DNA from: Oceanospirillaceae bacterium
GTDB lineage: Bacteria > Pseudomonadota > Gammaproteobacteria > Pseudomonadales > Litoribrevibacteraceae
Direction: 5' to 3'
NCBI GenBank assembly: GCA_015665455.1
Contig: JADFAD010000001.1
Span: 124,001 to 188,000 of the forward strand
Length of the DNA stretch: 64,000 nt
The translations under genes and the position numbers were made by a program. Shown here piece by piece: positions 2,031-60,812 of the stretch (position 1 is the stretch's first letter; every line of letters begins with the position of its first letter). Below the pieces are notes generated by a model, which did no database searches, was not told the DNA's origin, and saw nothing but the letters and a program-made list of their open reading frames with translations.

Positions 2031-2777
2031 TTAAATTCTTTCCATGGATTGATGGCTTGTATTTGTTGGTTTAGCTTCAAAAGAACTGCAGACCAAAATA
2101 ACAAAGGCAACAAATGCCAGTAAAAACCATTGAATGGCATAGCCTTGGTGTTTTTCTGGTGTCATATAAACTGAAGCCCAGTGACTTACCGAAAGAGCTG
2201 AACGACCTTGAGTGATTTTGTAATAAGGTGCTTGTTCTTGCAGTCCTATGTTGATCAATGTCTCTTTGTTGAGCGCTTGGATTCGGATTACGGAATCTGA
2301 CACATGTTCAATGTTGTGGTTTGGTGACCGAACAGAAAGTTCTGATGCTTTTGTAATGATTGTTGAGTCCGTTGCATAAGTGGTTGGAATATCAGGAAGT
2401 AAGTGTCTTTCTTTTTTTGCCGGCACCCAGCCCCGATTTACTAACACTATTTGCTGCGTTGTCTCCGTTTTGAATAGCTGAATAACTTCATAACCCACCT
2501 TTCCATTGACGACTTGGTTATCCAGTAGGAGTATGGGAGCATGGACGTATTCGCCAGATATATTCAGTTCTGCGTTGTTTTTCTGTTTTTGCAACAGGTC
2601 TACTTTCTGCTGCGCTCGATCCAGTTGCCAGAACCCGAGGAAAATACCAAGGGTTATGACCGCAATCATAAACAGCCAATAATAAATACGAACATGAAAA
2701 CACCTGACCCAACCATTCAAGCTAAACTGAACAGTGAGTATTTTTTTGGGAGTATTTTCTATGGTTTTTAAATCCAT
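2031..2777 (-). CDS. SURF1 family cytochrome oxidase biogenesis protein
   Basis: Helper for maturation of heme-copper oxidase subunit I, thought to assist heme A insertion. The 248-residue protein has the family layout: a transmembrane helix near residues 32-50 ending in the signature GFWQLDRAQQK, a periplasmic domain containing VNRGWVPAKK, and a second transmembrane helix near the C-terminus. The only ATG that keeps the first helix is at 2775-2777. That start lies inside the divergently transcribed small gene at 2761, so the two genes overlap head to head by 17 bases. A TTG further in cannot be excluded. It belongs to the minus-strand oxidase transcription unit. Confidence 0.9.
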   Translation of the reverse strand: MDLKTIENTPKKILTVQFSLNGWVRCFHVRIYYWLFMIAVITLGIFLGFWQLDRAQQKVDLLQKQKNNAELNISGEYVHAPILLLDNQVVNGKVGYEVIQLFKTETTQQIVLVNRGWVPAKKERHLLPDIPTTYATDSTIITKASELSVRSPNHNIEHVSDSVIRIQALNKETLINIGLQEQAPYYKITQGRSALSVSHWASVYMTPEKHQGYAIQWFLLAFVAFVILVCSSFEAKPTNTSHQSMERI

Positions 2778-2955
2778 TATTGTTGTTCTTCTTATTGCTG
2801 TTGTTGTGAGCTTATTTTGGTCTTTTTGGCATCTTATTCGTCATGCTGAACCAGACCGCAAGGTGTTAAACGGTCTGGCTCTAAGGGTTGTGTTAAGTGG
2901 ATTCACGTTAGCCATTGTATTTGTGTATTTATGGCAAAAGAGCTCCGTCGTTTAA
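2761..2955 (+). CDS. DUF2909-type small two-helix membrane protein
   Basis: A 64-residue protein made of two hydrophobic helices separated by the polar loop HLIRHAEPDRKVL. It matches the pattern of the DUF2909 or twin transmembrane family commonly found inside cytochrome oxidase loci of gammaproteobacteria; the function is not known. I start at the ATG at 2761 because GGGAG lies eight bases upstream. An upstream GTG at 2734 has no comparable ribosome-binding site. It is the only plus-strand gene in the first 7.2 kb, and its 5' end overlaps that of SURF1. Confidence 0.8.
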   Translation: MVFKSIIVVLLIAVVVSLFWSFWHLIRHAEPDRKVLNGLALRVVLSGFTLAIVFVYLWQKSSVV

Positions 2956-2962
2956 TGAACGG

Positions 2963-3865
2963 TTAAATCACGTAGACGAAGGTAAATAATAATAACCAAA
3001 CCACGTCAACAAAGTGCCAATACCATGCCGCAGCTTCAAAACCAAAGTGCTTTTGCTTCGAGAAATGCCCTTTCATTATGCGAACCAAGATGACGGCCAG
3101 CATGATCGTCCCTATGGTCACGTGAGCGCCATGAAAGCCTGTAAGTAAAAAGAATGTTGAACCGTAAATGCCTGAAGATAAGGTCAGCTGTAAATGGTTG
3201 TAGGCTTCTTGGTATTCGAAGACTTGAAAACCAAGAAAAATAATCCCAAGAATGACGGTAGTCAGTAACCACAGAGTGCATTTATTTCGTTCGTCTTTTT
3301 TTAAAGCATGGTGAGCTAAGGTGAGGGTAAAGCTTGATGTCACAAGAATGACGGTGTTTAGGAATGGGATTTGCCACGCAGGGATGGTAGCGCTAGGTCC
3401 AGGAAATAACTCTGGATCAGGTGTATTGAGCAGAGGCCAGTGAGCAGTAAAATTTGGCCATAATAAATTACTAACCCCTTTTGCTCCTTCCCCTCCAAGC
3501 CAGGGAATCGATAGCGTTCTCACGTAAAGTAAAACCCCGAAGAATGCGGCGAAAAACATGACTTCAGAGAATATGAACCAGGCCATGCCCAACCGAAAGG
3601 ATTTGTCGAGTTGGGGAGAATAAAGCCCAGATTGGCTTTCTTGAACTACATTAGAGAACCAGCCGTAGAGCATGTATACCGTCAAACCTAGGCCGAACAG
3701 CATGATCCAGCTTGGCGTTGCACTGGCTTCTCCTATTTTTGAACTGTAAAGCATTGATGCGATGCCATAGATAAAAGCGACTACTGCAACGGTTGCAATG
3801 ATTGGCCATTTACTCTGATGAGGAACATAGTAATTAGGAACATTAGAGTTATGTACTTGGCTCAT
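2963..3865 (-). CDS. ctaE: Cytochrome c oxidase subunit III
   Basis: Third core subunit of the aa3-type oxidase, which stabilises subunit I and its proton uptake. The 300-residue protein has seven predicted helices and the family landmarks MAWFIFSEVMFFAAFF, GFHGAHVTIGTI and the C-terminal WYWHFVDVVWLLLF. The N-terminus (about 25 residues) and the loop around residues 120-165 are hydrophilic, as in the long marine gammaproteobacterial form. Its first 17 bases overlap the end of the cox11 gene, so the two are probably translationally coupled. The symbol coxC is also used. Confidence 0.96.
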   Translation of the reverse strand: MSQVHNSNVPNYYVPHQSKWPIIATVAVVAFIYGIASMLYSSKIGEASATPSWIMLFGLGLTVYMLYGWFSNVVQESQSGLYSPQLDKSFRLGMAWFIFSEVMFFAAFFGVLLYVRTLSIPWLGGEGAKGVSNLLWPNFTAHWPLLNTPDPELFPGPSATIPAWQIPFLNTVILVTSSFTLTLAHHALKKDERNKCTLWLLTTVILGIIFLGFQVFEYQEAYNHLQLTLSSGIYGSTFFLLTGFHGAHVTIGTIMLAVILVRIMKGHFSKQKHFGFEAAAWYWHFVDVVWLLLFTFVYVI

Positions 3866-50160: not shown

Positions 50161-51057
50161 ATGCACAGTACTCAAACCATTGCTTTTTTCTTACTGGTGT
50201 TTTGTGGCGTCAGTACCTCTTTTCTGATGATTTTATACTTTTCAACGTCCTATTCTAAGAAGTCTTTACAGCGAAAATCCCTTAGAAACTATGAGCTTGT
50301 TTTAACGCTGATTCGACTTATTCAGCAACACAGGGGGTTAAGCCAAGGGGTTATTTCAGGTGAAAAAGCGTTATTTGATCGTCTGAATGAAGTCCAAGTT
50401 AGTATCTCGCGTTCAATTGATGAATTAAGTGCTTACTTAATTGGTGGTTCAAATGAACGTTGGGTCAGTTTTCTGGATCACTGGGCTAGATTGAGTCATA
50501 AATCTGTGACGGTGGAAGGAGAAGACAGTTTTAAACAACATAATCAAATGATCAGTAACTTGATGTACTTGTCAGAAGATATTTGTCTCAATTCTGACTT
50601 AGGGCATGGAGATTCTTTGGGCGCAAACCCTAGCTTTTGGCACGAGTTGCTGGTGCTTTCTGAAAGTTTAGGGCAATCAAGAGCCTTAGGAACTGCCGTA
50701 CTCATACGGGGTGATATCAATTATATAGAGCAAATTCGAGCTAAGTTATCGGTCGATCGCATTGAGCATCAATTGTCGTTTTTACAAAAGGGTATGCCGT
50801 TAGATGATTTTATTATCATCAAGGAACGGATTGAGCCTGTACTTGGCGTCCTGAAACGATTTTTAGTCGATGCCTCAGAAAGCGATTTCAGTGGGCAGGA
50901 GTTCTTTGCCATAGCAACTTCGGCAATCGTTTCCGTGTCAGACTTACTTGAGCAAGGAATACAGGAAATAAAGCGCGAACTAGGTTGTGGATCATCGTCA
51001 GACCGTCAACGTTCCAGGTTTAGTTGCCAAAGAGAGCCGAGACTTTCTATGTCCTGA
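50161..51057 (+). CDS. Single-helix membrane protein with NIT-like sensor domain
   Basis: A 298-residue protein with an N-terminal transmembrane helix (about residues 8-30) and a helical domain. The segment LIRLIQQHRGLSQGVISGEK resembles the first helix of NIT (nitrate/nitrite-sensing) domains, which read LQxERGxSxGYL-like. A matching later helix is SLGQSRALGTAVLIRG. There is no HAMP, kinase, GGDEF or methyl-accepting output domain, so it may be a partner subunit or a decayed receptor. AGGGAG precedes the ATG. Its last 11 bases overlap the convergent gene at 51047. Confidence 0.65.
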   Translation: MHSTQTIAFFLLVFCGVSTSFLMILYFSTSYSKKSLQRKSLRNYELVLTLIRLIQQHRGLSQGVISGEKALFDRLNEVQVSISRSIDELSAYLIGGSNERWVSFLDHWARLSHKSVTVEGEDSFKQHNQMISNLMYLSEDICLNSDLGHGDSLGANPSFWHELLVLSESLGQSRALGTAVLIRGDINYIEQIRAKLSVDRIEHQLSFLQKGMPLDDFIIIKERIEPVLGVLKRFLVDASESDFSGQEFFAIATSAIVSVSDLLEQGIQEIKRELGCGSSSDRQRSRFSCQREPRLSMS

Positions 51058-53917
51058 TTTCGGCTTTGTGATGTTTGAAAAATTCAAGGATTTGATCGTT
51101 AGCAAGGGGTTTTGAATACAAATAGCCTTGAGCTTCGTCGCAGAGGTATTCTTTTAGAAAGGCAGACTGTTGCTCTGTTTCGACGCCTTCTGCGATCACT
51201 TTTAATCCCATTTGGTGGGCCAAAGCAATGGTTGATGTCGCTATGGCTGCCCCTCCTTCACCCGTCAATATGTCATCTACAAAGCTCTTGTCAATTTTGA
51301 GCTTGTCGATAGAAAAACGCTTTAGGTAGCTTAGAGATGAATAACCGGTGCCAAAATCATCAATAGCAATGTAGATACCTAATGATTTGAGTTCTTTTAG
51401 GGTCTCTATCGTCACTTCAATGTTCTCGATGGCGATGCCTTCAGTGATCTCTAACTCTAAATTATGGGCAGGTAAGTTATGTTCTTTCAGCGCATTTTTC
51501 ACTTGGCTTACAATATTTGATCGATGGAACTGCTTTGCTGATAGGTTCACTGCGACACGGCCAAATTGGTAACCTTGGTCGAGCCACTCTCGTGCTTGCC
51601 GACAAGACTCCATGAGTACCCATTCGCCCAATTGAAGGATCAATCCGCTTTCTTCGGCAAGAGGAATAAAATCACCAGGCGATATCATGCCTTTTTCAGT
51701 ATGTATCCAGCGAACGAGACTTTCTAAACCAATAATTGATTCATTCTCAAGCGAGATCTGAGGCTGGTAGTGAAGAATAAACCCCTGCTCTTGAAGTGCC
51801 TTATGCATGTCATTTTCAAGAATTAAGAGCTCAACGGCGCGGTTGTTTATTTCTTTGGTGTAGAACTGGTAATTATTTTTACCTTTCTCTTTTACCTGAT
51901 ACATAGCACTGTCAGCGCAGCGTAATAGTTCGTCGCCTTGTTCTCCGTCATCAGGGTATATGCTAATGCCTATGCTGGCGGTGCTGTGTAAATCATGGTT
52001 TTCTATGCGAATGGGCTTTGATATTGCTTGAAGAAGTTTATTGGCGACTAAGATAACATCATGATTATCGTTGATGTCTTCCAGTAAAACGACAAATTCA
52101 TCACCACCTAATCGTGCAAAAGTGTCCGATTGACGCATGGTTTTACAGGATCGGTTGGCAATGCACTTCAAGAATTGGTCACCCACTTCATGTCCTAGGC
52201 TGTCATTGATGTTTTTAAATCGATCTAAATCGAGTAACAATACAGCAAGCTTGTAATTCTCCCTCGATGCTCTACTTATTGCGTGTTTTAATCGATCGTT
52301 ATATAAAAGTCGGTTAGGTAGACCTGTTAGCGTGTCATGGTGTGCTAAATGCTTAAGATGTGATTCGTGCTTCAACAGTTTATCTTGGGCGACCCTTGTT
52401 TCCGTGATGTCTTGAATTGCACCTACGATGGTTTTAGAGCCAAGTTCATTCAGTTTGACATGCCCCTGTACTCGAAGCCATTGAAGTTGATTATCTTGGA
52501 TTACTTTTAAATTAAGGTCGAGAGGCTCTTCTGTTTCTAACGTTATTTCTGCAGACTTCTTGAATAGGTATCTATGCTCTTCATGAAACATGTTTGCAAG
52601 AGCCTCTAAGTTACTTTGATTCGACGTTAAATTTAAAATGGACACCGTTTCTTGGGTAAAATAAATTGTATCATCGGATAGCATTTCCCAGCCCCCGACT
52701 TTTGCGAGTTTTCCTGTTTCTGTTAGAAGTTGTTTACTGTGATTTAATTTCTCCATAGTTTCTTTTTGCCTGCTGATGTCCCTTACTAACAGCCAGAGCG
52801 CAACGGGTTTTCCAAGTTCGTTTAGATGTAGACATTGGCGAATATTGACTGGGAACGCAGTGCCGTCAATGTGGAGAAGTTCTTTTTCGTACTCTTGGCA
52901 GGGAAGACGTTGTTCGACCTGAACGTCTCGAAGCATTTGGTCTTTGTTTAACCAGTTCTTAGGCGTTACATCTTGTAGAGAACTTTCGAGGACATTTTCC
53001 CATTTTCGACCAAGCATGATGCAGTAGGTTTCGTTGGCATCTAAACATTGGCCAGTCAAATCATAGTAGGCAATGCCATCTGCGTTGGTTTCAAAGAGCG
53101 TTCGGTATCGACGTTCAGACTCTTTTAGTGCACCTTCTACTACCATTTGATCGGTAATGTCGTATTGGATACCGATGAAGTGTGTGACTTCACCAAGGCC
53201 GTTACTTACAGGAGAGATCGAAAGTTCGTTCCAAAACATTTCTCCTGACTTTTTATAATTCCTAAGTACGGTCTTACAGTCGGTGCCGTGCTCAAGTGCT
53301 TCTCTGATGATTGGTATGGCTCTTTGATCTCTATCTTCACTTTGGAGAAAACGGCAGTTTTTTCCTAATATCTCTTGAACGTCATAACCGGTAAGCTTTG
53401 AAAACGCTTGGTTACTGTAAATAATCGGTTGGTTAGTTAAGCGTGCGTCTGAAATTGTAACCCCATGCTGAGCGGCTTCTAGAGCTCTTGAGAGTAAATA
53501 CATGAATGAGCTGTCTGTCTCGGGTTCAGCCACGGATAGATGAACTAAGATTAATTCCGGTTGTTGAAGAGACGTCTGAGAATCCGATTCAGGACTGGTA
53601 CTTGTTAAGTTAAATTTTATAGGGCTTGCACTGACATTGAGCTCGCAATTACCGAGGTTGATTTTATTCTGGAAATTCCCTGCCTTGAGTGAATATTTAA
53701 ATTCTTTTTTGATCGTGTTTAGCTCAGGAATTAAATCAAATAAAGGCTTATTAACAAATGCGTTTAAGCAGCGCTGTAAAGAATGCTCTTTACTAGAAAT
53801 AGACGCGACACGGGTAGTGATTAGATCAATGACGATTGAGATATGATCTATTTGCCTAAGGTATGCCGCTAAAAGGGGTTGATCAACATCCTTGTCTGTT
53901 GGCATGGATGGTTGCAT
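51047..53917 (-). CDS. LOV-PAS-PAS-GGDEF-EAL protein (putative light-responsive c-di-GMP enzyme)
   Basis: A 956-residue cytoplasmic protein. An N-terminal part of about 135 residues is unassigned. A LOV domain (about 140-265) follows with the flavin motif GKNCRFLQ; Cys188 is the adduct-forming position, and NYKKSGEMFWNELSISPV and THFIGIQYDIT are matching LOV strands. Two more PAS domains follow. GGDEF is canonical (RLGGDEF, 604-608) with an RxxD site (RQSD). The EAL domain reads ESL at 732-734, with catalytic-region DDFGTGYSSL and AEGVET intact. I start at the ATG after AGGA; an upstream TTG is unlikely. It overlaps its convergent neighbour by 11 bases. Confidence 0.9.
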   Translation of the reverse strand: MQPSMPTDKDVDQPLLAAYLRQIDHISIVIDLITTRVASISSKEHSLQRCLNAFVNKPLFDLIPELNTIKKEFKYSLKAGNFQNKINLGNCELNVSASPIKFNLTSTSPESDSQTSLQQPELILVHLSVAEPETDSSFMYLLSRALEAAQHGVTISDARLTNQPIIYSNQAFSKLTGYDVQEILGKNCRFLQSEDRDQRAIPIIREALEHGTDCKTVLRNYKKSGEMFWNELSISPVSNGLGEVTHFIGIQYDITDQMVVEGALKESERRYRTLFETNADGIAYYDLTGQCLDANETYCIMLGRKWENVLESSLQDVTPKNWLNKDQMLRDVQVEQRLPCQEYEKELLHIDGTAFPVNIRQCLHLNELGKPVALWLLVRDISRQKETMEKLNHSKQLLTETGKLAKVGGWEMLSDDTIYFTQETVSILNLTSNQSNLEALANMFHEEHRYLFKKSAEITLETEEPLDLNLKVIQDNQLQWLRVQGHVKLNELGSKTIVGAIQDITETRVAQDKLLKHESHLKHLAHHDTLTGLPNRLLYNDRLKHAISRASRENYKLAVLLLDLDRFKNINDSLGHEVGDQFLKCIANRSCKTMRQSDTFARLGGDEFVVLLEDINDNHDVILVANKLLQAISKPIRIENHDLHSTASIGISIYPDDGEQGDELLRCADSAMYQVKEKGKNNYQFYTKEINNRAVELLILENDMHKALQEQGFILHYQPQISLENESIIGLESLVRWIHTEKGMISPGDFIPLAEESGLILQLGEWVLMESCRQAREWLDQGYQFGRVAVNLSAKQFHRSNIVSQVKNALKEHNLPAHNLELEITEGIAIENIEVTIETLKELKSLGIYIAIDDFGTGYSSLSYLKRFSIDKLKIDKSFVDDILTGEGGAAIATSTIALAHQMGLKVIAEGVETEQQSAFLKEYLCDEAQGYLYSKPLANDQILEFFKHHKAEIRT

Positions 53918-54017
53918 TCCTTTATCCTGAACTGTTGCTATTTTGTACAACTATAGATGATTTTTAGCTCAATGTTAGGATAATTAACCATACGCTTTAA
54001 GCTGCTCTTAGTAGGTG

Positions 54018-56159
54018 TCAGCTTAGAAAGGAGGACGCATCCTCTACATCATTTTGTTCTGGAAGCAAAACTTTCAGAGCGTACTTTTTCCAGACTTTTG
54101 ACTTGATAAATAACTCGAATAAGTCGGGATCAATATGGTTGCTCTCTTTCATATTTTTTAAGATTTTCAAAGCAAGACTGAGTGGCATTGGTGGCTTGTA
54201 GGGTCTATCTCTCGCCGTTAATGCTTCAAAGATGTCTGCAATGGCCATCATGCGAGCAGGAAGTGACATTTGATCTCTTGTCAGCCCTTTAGGAAATCCA
54301 GTCCCGTCCATCTTTTCATGATGTCCTCCTGCGTATTCAGGTACGCGTTTGAGTTTTTTAGGGAAAGGAAGTGATTCAAGCATATCAATGGTGACTTGCA
54401 TGTGGTTGTTAATCACTTTTCTTTCATCTAAGGAAAGTGTCCCTTTTTGAATGCATAGATTTTCAACTTCGTCTTCTGTCAGCAAAGATTGTATTTGTCC
54501 CTGAAGATCGACCCACTTAATTCTGGATAAGTCTCGTACTTTTTCTTGGTCTTCTTCTTTCATGAATTCGCCGCCTTTATTGGCAGCGGTGATGAACTTG
54601 GCAATACCTTGGATTTCATTAACAGAAAGTTCATTGTTCTCGTTAATTTCTGAAATATTACTGATGTTGTGCTTGAGAGCGGCAAGTCGAGCGAGTACGA
54701 GTTCTATGCCGTCTCTCATGGTATGGAGTTTCGTGGACTTCTCCAGTACTGTGTCGGGCGTCGCAAGTTTTCCACAGTCGTGCATCCATGCGGCAACTCG
54801 AACTTCGTACCACTCATCGTCGTCCAGATTAAAGTCTTTGAAGGTTTCGTCGTCGTCACATGCGGCTTGAGCAATCAACTCCATGAGCATCGGAACTCGT
54901 TGGCAATGCGCTGATGTGTGTGGTGACTTAGCATCAATGGCTTGTGCAATGCATTGGATGAAGGCATCCAATAGGTCCTTATGATCTTGAAGTAATATTT
55001 GATTGTTCAAGGCAATGGCCGCGTAGGTCGCTAAGCCTTTAACTAGGGGTTCTACACGTCGACTGAAAGGAATGGATGCTTTCGTTTCTGGGTGCTTTGC
55101 GTTTATTAATTGTAGAACGCCAATGACATCTTCATTGTGATTAAGCAGTGGTACAGCTAAGAACGAGCAGGACTTGTAGCCACTTGCTTCATCGAATGCT
55201 TTGGTGCCTTCGAAATCAAATGCTTTATTTTCGTAAGCGTTTTCAATATTAACTAATTGTTTGGTATTAGCGCAGAAGGTGGCAATGTTGGTTAGGTTGT
55301 CGTGTCCGTTTTCGTCTTTTAAAAGAATAGGAGGAAAGTTACTTTTCTCATGCGATCCTAATAGGTTTTTGTCTATTTTTAATGTTTTGTTTCGTATGAC
55401 AGAGAAACACAGCTTTGGCTCCGTTTCTTCATCTTGCATTAAATAAATAGTACCAGCATCGGCCATTGTTAGCGCTTGGGCTTCTTTTAATATTTTAGGC
55501 AGTAAAGTCTGTGTGGATGAAAAAGCAGACAGTTCAGAAAGTAGGGCTCTTTGGCTGTTAATTTGAAGCTGTTGATCTAATGCGACGGAAGCAAACCGGC
55601 CAAGTTCGGTGAGTATTTCTTCACAGCTTTTATCGAAGCTTATAATATTCTTGTTTTCGTCTTGGGCGTTGATCAGTTGTAGGACTCCTACGAGTTGATT
55701 CGCTTGGTTGGTTAGGGGGAGCGCAAGTACAGATTCTGTATGATATTGTGACTGTTTATCAATTTGTGTTGTTCCTGAGTGCTTGTTTTCATTATCGTAA
55801 ACATCGGAAATGTTAATTAACTCTCGATGATGGGCTGCTTGGGTAACTACCGTACTTAAGTTTGGCTCGCAACTGAATGAGTCATACAAAGGAATCGGTG
55901 AGAATTTGACTCTATTATTTGAGGTCCCTCCTTGGTGTATGTTTAATGATGTGTTTTTAACAATGATAAATTCTAACGATTTCGGTTGGTGGGGGTTAGT
56001 GATGTACAGTGTTCCCCCATCTGCACGAGTGAGTTGTTGAGCATACGTCAAAACCTTCTCATACAGCTGAGACACGTCTCGTTCAGCAAACAGTTCATGC
56101 GCTATATCCATAAGGTGTCGACTGGTTTCGAGATCTAAGACCCGCTTTACTTGATTCAT
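54018..56159 (-). CDS. GAF-GAF-HD-GYP phosphodiesterase
   Basis: Predicted c-di-GMP phosphodiesterase of about 713 residues. There are two GAF domains (about 15-195 and 205-390; the matching cores end GVLQLINAQDENK and GVLQLINAKHPET), then the HD-GYP domain. HD is seen in WMHDCGKLATPDTVLEKS (His460) and the extended motif in HHEKMDGTGFPKGL (from His613), with GYP represented by GTGFP. I prefer the second ATG (56157-56159) because GGGAG lies eight bases before it; the first ATG is only two bases from it. An insert of about 65 residues separates the HD pair from the HHE motif. Confidence 0.9.
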   Translation of the reverse strand: MNQVKRVLDLETSRHLMDIAHELFAERDVSQLYEKVLTYAQQLTRADGGTLYITNPHQPKSLEFIIVKNTSLNIHQGGTSNNRVKFSPIPLYDSFSCEPNLSTVVTQAAHHRELINISDVYDNENKHSGTTQIDKQSQYHTESVLALPLTNQANQLVGVLQLINAQDENKNIISFDKSCEEILTELGRFASVALDQQLQINSQRALLSELSAFSSTQTLLPKILKEAQALTMADAGTIYLMQDEETEPKLCFSVIRNKTLKIDKNLLGSHEKSNFPPILLKDENGHDNLTNIATFCANTKQLVNIENAYENKAFDFEGTKAFDEASGYKSCSFLAVPLLNHNEDVIGVLQLINAKHPETKASIPFSRRVEPLVKGLATYAAIALNNQILLQDHKDLLDAFIQCIAQAIDAKSPHTSAHCQRVPMLMELIAQAACDDDETFKDFNLDDDEWYEVRVAAWMHDCGKLATPDTVLEKSTKLHTMRDGIELVLARLAALKHNISNISEINENNELSVNEIQGIAKFITAANKGGEFMKEEDQEKVRDLSRIKWVDLQGQIQSLLTEDEVENLCIQKGTLSLDERKVINNHMQVTIDMLESLPFPKKLKRVPEYAGGHHEKMDGTGFPKGLTRDQMSLPARMMAIADIFEALTARDRPYKPPMPLSLALKILKNMKESNHIDPDLFELFIKSKVWKKYALKVLLPEQNDVEDASSFLS

Positions 56160-56408
56160 TGTCATTGCTCCCGTGCTTAAATCTCCGTCGTAAACCTTAG
56201 ATTCTTATTGTTGAACTTAGAAGTAGACCTGTAAGGTGTCAAACTATTCGCTTGATATGAATCAAGTGGCTCTATTGGGAAACTGTGGTAAAGTTGCCAG
56301 CCGTTTTTTCAGCGAACAAATGGCCACTGAAATTGGTTGTTTAAGTATGAATAAGGCTAGGTGATATTCCTGTCTTTTCGAAGAATGAAGCCAGAGATAA
56401 GAGAAATA

Positions 56409-59897: not shown

Positions 59898-60812
59898 CTA
59901 ATGGGTGATTATGACGGACCCATTGCCTTTGGTTTTAGCCTCAAGAAGTGCTTCTTCTGTATTGTGATACATTTGATCAAAGGGGAGTTGAGATCTGCCT
60001 AATACATGGGCACCAATGGTTATTGATGTTTTAAATACTCTTCCTTCGAATTCTAGATCCAGTTCTTTAAAGAGATTTTGCGTTCGCTGAGCTATGCTTT
60101 CTGTTTGCTCTTGATTGGCGCCTGACAGCAATATTGAGAATTCATCGCCGTCTAGACGTCCAATCAGATCATAATCCCTGTACAGCTCTTTGAGTTCATG
60201 TGCGACTTGAACCAAACAATGATCGCCAGCATGGTGGCCGTATTTATCATTGATGTCTTTGAGTTTACATAAATCCACTAAGAGAAGCGCAGTTGGCTCG
60301 TTGGCTCGGTATCCGCGACTGATTTCGTTTTTTGCTCGATCAACAAAGGTTCGGTGATTTAATAACCCTGTCATTAAATCGTGGCTGCTGGCTTCGTTTA
60401 AAAGGGACTTGGAATGAGCCAGTTCTTCTTGTGCTTCTCTGTTGACAGTTTGGTCATAAAAGAACACACAAAGGTGGTCGTCTTCTAAAAGCTGCTCAAC
60501 AATTAAGAACCACCGGCCATCAAGGCTATCCACCTCAAAAGAGCGGTAGACTTCAGTACGTCTTAGTAGCATTGCGTCGGTTAACCATTGATCAATATCA
60601 TGGGATTGAATGGATAAACCGGTTTGAGTCTCATAGGCATGACGGATAAGGCCTTGATATTCTTTACCGTTAATTTCATGGCTGTGATAGCCAAAAAGCT
60701 CCGATGCCATTTGATTGCAATACACCACGACATCGTCCTTATTGAGAATCATGATCCCGTTTTCAGTGAGATCAAGCGCCGCAGATAATAACTTGTTTAT
60801 ATTTGAGTCCAT
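59898..60812 (-). CDS. PAS-GGDEF protein with variant DGDEF motif
   Basis: A 304-residue soluble protein. The PAS domain (about 5-125) begins LDLTENGIMILNKDDVVVYC; the GGDEF domain (about 145-302) has DLMTGLLNHRTF and LLVDLCKLKDINDKYGHHAG. The active motif reads RLDGDEFSILL, so the first Gly of GGDEF is Asp. Some enzymes tolerate this, but activity is uncertain. An RxxD inhibitory-site motif (RDYD) is intact. No membrane segment, so the PAS domain should sense something in the cytoplasm. Confidence 0.9.
   Translation of the reverse strand: MDSNINKLLSAALDLTENGIMILNKDDVVVYCNQMASELFGYHSHEINGKEYQGLIRHAYETQTGLSIQSHDIDQWLTDAMLLRRTEVYRSFEVDSLDGRWFLIVEQLLEDDHLCVFFYDQTVNREAQEELAHSKSLLNEASSHDLMTGLLNHRTFVDRAKNEISRGYRANEPTALLLVDLCKLKDINDKYGHHAGDHCLVQVAHELKELYRDYDLIGRLDGDEFSILLSGANQEQTESIAQRTQNLFKELDLEFEGRVFKTSITIGAHVLGRSQLPFDQMYHNTEEALLEAKTKGNGSVIITH

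Follow-up and report, generated by a model that had tools for sequence, protein, structure and literature searches.

A LOV-PAS-PAS-GGDEF-EAL protein of an Oceanospirillaceae bacterium, a probable blue-light sensor joined to c-di-GMP enzyme domains

Here we describe a gene from an Oceanospirillaceae bacterium whose product is very probably a blue-light sensor fused to c-di-GMP-making and c-di-GMP-breaking enzyme domains. It occupies positions 51047..53917 of the minus strand in the window, the whole 64,000-nucleotide stretch of DNA that was analysed. LOV, GGDEF and EAL domains follow one another in that order on one polypeptide, and the protein is a genuine, fairly ordinary example of the known LOV-GGDEF-EAL class. 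Its chief distinction is a pair of additional relay domains that separate the sensor from the enzymes. Judged from sequence and structure model, it is quite likely that a photoactive LOV domain controls the GGDEF-EAL output. The protein offers a well-preserved, testable case of light input to c-di-GMP.

The translated frame of 956 aa begins with an ATG at 53917 and ends at 51047, in agreement with the first-pass annotation, and Pfam matches and an ortholog support the LOV-PAS-PAS-GGDEF-EAL assignment. An in-frame TTG at 53950, upstream of this ATG, would add 11 residues.

The LOV domain

The LOV domain (aa 139-257; 53147..53503, minus strand) was assigned from a PDB sequence search, alignment, profile and fold matches. 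By sequence and model it appears to be a real, canonical LOV domain and an apparently intact photoreceptor. The motif GKNCRFLQ, which had been read from the sequence as a LOV flavin-binding signature, lies at aa 185-192 and is a full GxNCRFLQ. Its cysteine, Cys188, is equivalent in the alignment to the adduct-forming cysteine, and the codon is found where it had been placed (53354..53356, minus strand). The LOV-like strands described at the same time, NYKKSGEMFWNELSISPV and THFIGIQYDIT, come after the motif.

A comparison of FMN contacts had been proposed, and the core positions agree with those of YtvA and AsLOV2, whose reference sequences match their PDB entries letter for letter. Seven core pocket residues are conserved in the alignment (C188, R189, Q192, R205, N220, N230 and Q251). 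These comprise the adduct-type cysteine, the FMN-coordinating Arg, Gln, Arg, Asn and Asn, and the signalling Gln. The roles of the AsLOV2 equivalents of N220, N230 and Q251 (N482, N492 and Q513) have been described (PMC9098866). The position of the AsLOV2 contact Asn425 is Gln163 here and Cys in the ortholog, and that of Thr418 is Ser156. Both 156 and 163 are peripheral contacts that vary among the LOV domains in the alignment.

A 143-aa segment (aa 135-277) was searched against the PDB with phmmer. The best match (E 2.5e-35) is 7r5n, named in the Foldseek listing as PF5-LOV of Pseudomonas fluorescens, and all 60 PDB chains among the matches listed are LOV proteins or LOV fusions, the LOV-diguanylate cyclase 8c05 among them. 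The domain is also the top PAS_9 match of the genome, at 77.5 bits. A profile search and a structure model had both been suggested as checks, and both point to a LOV domain. The YtvA_fam profile matches the segment at 3.3e-43, and the AlphaFold2 model of aa 1-400, with pLDDT mostly about 90 over aa 150-260, has a LOV-type PAS fold whose nearest solved folds are LOVs. VIA-align returned a list filled by LOV proteins, including the Meiothermus ruber LOV 9vf7 (Z 20.3, rmsd 1.3 over 141 aa). The top Foldseek match is the LOV-PAS of Brucella LOV-HK (6pps, 6ph4), in which a LOV is likewise followed by a PAS; its output is a histidine kinase, unlike that of the present protein.

In the 4.85-Mb genome there is a single exact copy of the degenerate DNA motif for the LOV signature. 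The closest other matches to the pattern carry at least two mismatches, and a reversed-pattern control yields at least as many. A chance motif is ruled out by the PDB E-values and the single exact match in the genome.

Relay and output domains

The first-pass annotation had called the LOV domain the first PAS domain of the protein. The LOV identity stands, but the description omits an N-terminal region of about 130 aa. This region (aa 14-131; 53525..53878, minus strand) matched no Pfam model, even with the cut-off relaxed to E 10, and aa 1-138 gave no meaningful match to PDB profiles. In the 400-aa model it has a PAS-like order of strands and helices at pLDDT about 24-75, and modelled alone it gave a poor, unreliable model. 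It is possibly a degenerate PAS domain, to go by this low-confidence order.

PAS2 (aa 267-383; 52769..53119, minus strand) is a clear PAS domain. It matches PAS_8 and the TIGR00229 sensory box, takes a PAS fold in the model, and is 37-41% identical to the PAS that follows the LOV in L081 and L082, two proteins from the same order (genomes G213 and G253). The assignment of PAS3 (aa 396-506; 52400..52732, minus strand) is weak. Its Pfam PAS match is sub-threshold (E = 0.059) and its NCBIfam matches are to FixL and PRK09776 (E about 1e-4); the region is tentatively assigned because it aligns with a homologous region of L108, a class-level relative, that lies above the PAS_3 cut-off. A helical linker of 28 residues joins PAS3 to the GGDEF domain (52328..52411, minus strand). 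It was counted by the Asp-to-Leu rule used for the LOV-activated diguanylate cyclases, or LadCs (PMC10396304), and runs from aa 503, the Asp of DIT, to aa 530, the Leu of DTLT. Its length is one heptad more than the 21-residue class and one heptad less than the 35-residue class.

Both output domains that had been reported were found with their catalytic residues, with the nuance that the EAL signature reads ESL. The GGDEF domain (aa 525-682; 51872..52345, minus strand) was identified by Pfam (1.3e-51) and PDB matches. Its GGDEF signature lies at aa 604-608, and RQSD at 595-598 provides the RxxD inhibitory site five residues upstream. The EAL domain (aa 702-937; 51107..51814, minus strand) was identified by Pfam (2.3e-73) and PDB matches, and its ESL signature (732-734) is also found in the ortholog. 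Aligned with MorA (4rnh), it has the metal-binding and catalytic residues E732, N791, E823, D853, D854, K874, E910, E913 and Q930, and it appears catalytically intact although the signature is ESL. The best GGDEF-EAL matches are MorA (E about 1e-124) and 5m3c (E about 1e-121).

A LOV-region match was found in 82 of 390 order-level genomes. Twenty of these order-level regions were examined with longer frames; they were hand-picked from the best matches and therefore are not a random sample, and 16 proteins among them have both the LOV motif and the EAL signature. Because the motif script demanded FLQ, LOV variants with, for example, NCRIFQ or NCRFLN escaped it. In ten proteins the script placed the LOV directly before the GGDEF, at 21 residues Asp to Leu or 18 Asp to Asp, and the same arrangement was seen by eye in L091, L096, L098 and L100. 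Several relatives have SGDEF or no recognisable GGDEF motif. A single PAS separates LOV from GGDEF in L081 and L082, against two in the present protein and its ortholog. These four group together in the GGDEF-EAL tree (99/99), where L081 and L082 are the closest GGDEF-EAL relatives. They share a related PAS after the LOV, and L081 also has a final linker of 28 residues, counted by eye; they differ in having one PAS instead of two and in their N-terminal region.

At class level two further proteins, L107 (motif NCRFLN) and L108 (NCRIFQ), aligned across LOV-PAS-PAS; the latter is longer and also carries GGDEF and EAL-like domains. The two-PAS layout is therefore not unique. It appears uncommon among the relatives examined, most of which have the LOV directly on the GGDEF, and mildly unusual, which bears out the earlier description of two extra PAS domains as less usual. 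The series of LOV placed on GGDEF, LOV-PAS and LOV-PAS-PAS offers a natural set of proteins in which to study how the signal from a LOV passes through PAS domains placed after it. The final linkers of 21, 28 and 35 residues allow one to ask whether heptad steps are involved.

LOV domains were also seen on IMG/VR contigs, which are putatively viral (L064-L080); two such contigs are 155 and 212 kb long. LOV-like domains occur in the multi-PAS proteins L109 (G508) and L110 (G963), with the motifs NGRFLQ and NCGFLQ. The motif NGRFLQ has Gly in place of the adduct Cys.

Ortholog and gene neighbourhood

Among 56 genomes, the bacterium's own and those of relatives, a near-full-length match was found only in G001, the sole further genome sampled from this bacterium's family. 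A close-relative scan of genome contigs gave two loci only. Over almost the whole protein the ortholog shows 67-68% identity (68% in the search, 67% in the alignment). It keeps Cys188, the full GxNCRFLQ, the core LOV residues and the GGDEF-EAL catalytic residues in the alignment. The gene is thus conserved rather than decaying, since a near-full-length ortholog with the same neighbours exists; a decayed gene is ruled out by that identity and the intact catalytic residues.

The two genomes share a gene order of MCP, thiolase, NIT-like, LOV gene, GAF-GAF-HD-GYP, DUF3422, permease and PAS-GGDEF. The GAF-GAF-HD-GYP protein (715 aa; 54018..56165, minus strand) was identified from Pfam and motifs and is the same neighbour in G001. 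Its gene lies upstream of the LOV gene in the same orientation, with a gap of 100 nt here and 223 nt in G001. It has the HD-GYP motifs HDCGK and HHEKMDGTGFP, in which GFP replaces GYP. A long insert separates the two motifs. An intergenic scan found no terminator-like site on the minus strand between the two genes, so co-transcription is possible. The promoter scan around the LOV gene was at background (14 found against 12.9 expected). A functional link between the two proteins may be supposed from this arrangement.

On the other side, a putative membrane-anchored NIT-like protein is encoded at 50161-51057 on the plus strand. Its Pfam NIT match (20.4 bits) is below the cut-off and no output domain was recognised in it; the 3' end of its gene overlaps that of the LOV gene by 11 bp. 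The PAS-GGDEF protein at 59898-60812 (minus strand) has the signature DGDEF, as does its syntenic counterpart in G001 (L053:15964-16914).

Light control and its direction

SL2 of Synechococcus elongatus, which has canonical LOV, GGDEF and EAL domains in the same order, is a light-activated phosphodiesterase (PMC8846402). It is described with these three domains only (PMC8846402), whereas the present protein adds two PAS domains and the N-terminal region. RmcA of Pseudomonas aeruginosa is likewise a multi-PAS GGDEF-EAL protein and has been linked to light-lowered c-di-GMP (PMC8846402). Its LOV-like PASd lacks the cysteine, in contrast to the canonical LOV described here, and it has a periplasmic sensing domain, of which none was identified in the present protein. 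Light-activated EAL activity thus has a precedent in SL2 and, genetically, in RmcA (PMC8846402). Because of these precedents we lean modestly towards light favouring c-di-GMP hydrolysis.

A scheme for the signal can be drawn from the literature on LOV domains and LadC (PMC9098866, PMC10396304, PMC12805367). Blue light would produce a thioether adduct between Cys188 and the LOV FMN, with FMN binding and the photocycle taken as predicted. Gln251 and the two asparagines would pass the change on to the beta-sheet. A shift in helical or coiled-coil register may then travel down PAS2 and PAS3 and along the 28-residue linker until it reaches the GGDEF-EAL dimer. The net effect would most likely be that the EAL domain hydrolyses more c-di-GMP in the light. 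The GGDEF domain could regulate the EAL by binding GTP, or could provide a second, switched cyclase activity. Against this scheme stand the deviating positions of AsLOV2 Asn425 and Thr418 (Gln163, Ser156) and the ESL signature, and the two intervening PAS domains could make the coupling of light to output weak or conditional on PAS ligands.

The less probable direction is that light raises c-di-GMP, with the GGDEF as the switched output as in LadC. In its favour, the GGDEF and RxxD motifs are intact, unlike those of the several relatives with SGDEF or none, and the linker is one heptad away from both the 21- and the 35-residue class. LadC resembles the present protein in coupling a LOV through helices to a GGDEF. 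However, LadCs have one LOV directly before the GGDEF, linkers of 21 or 35 residues and no EAL (PMC10396304), whereas here two PAS domains intervene, the final 28-residue linker comes after PAS3 and an EAL is present. Against it, that EAL is catalytically intact by sequence, and SL2, the characterised LOV-GGDEF-EAL precedent, is a light-activated phosphodiesterase.

We regard as unlikely a broader role as an integrator of several inputs, in which ligands of PAS2 and PAS3 would gate the LOV signal to a bifunctional GGDEF-EAL, with the HD-GYP protein forming part of a light-controlled c-di-GMP module. It is quite improbable that the LOV, with its flavin bound, serves chiefly to sense redox state or oxygen, with light incidental in the cell. 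Redox state is indeed reported by flavin PAS domains of GGDEF/EAL proteins, RmcA among them (PMC8846402), and the further PAS domains here could bind other ligands; the ortholog, however, keeps the photoactive-type Cys188 and the full GxNCRFLQ. The motif is also present in 17 order-level LOV proteins, weak evidence because these were chosen for having it. A non-photoactive PAS that only resembles a LOV, as the two deviating peripheral positions (S156, Q163) might suggest, is highly improbable, given that no core residue is missing, the cysteine included, and that LOVs are the closest among solved sequences and folds.

The genome that houses this candidate light-controlled GGDEF-EAL protein has 27 EAL matches and one exact LOV motif. 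No phytochrome PHY domain was detected in the genome. One BLUF protein (139 aa; L101:3604-4023) adjoins a divergent PAS-GGDEF gene (2493-3404) and is a likely second blue-light sensor of the genome.
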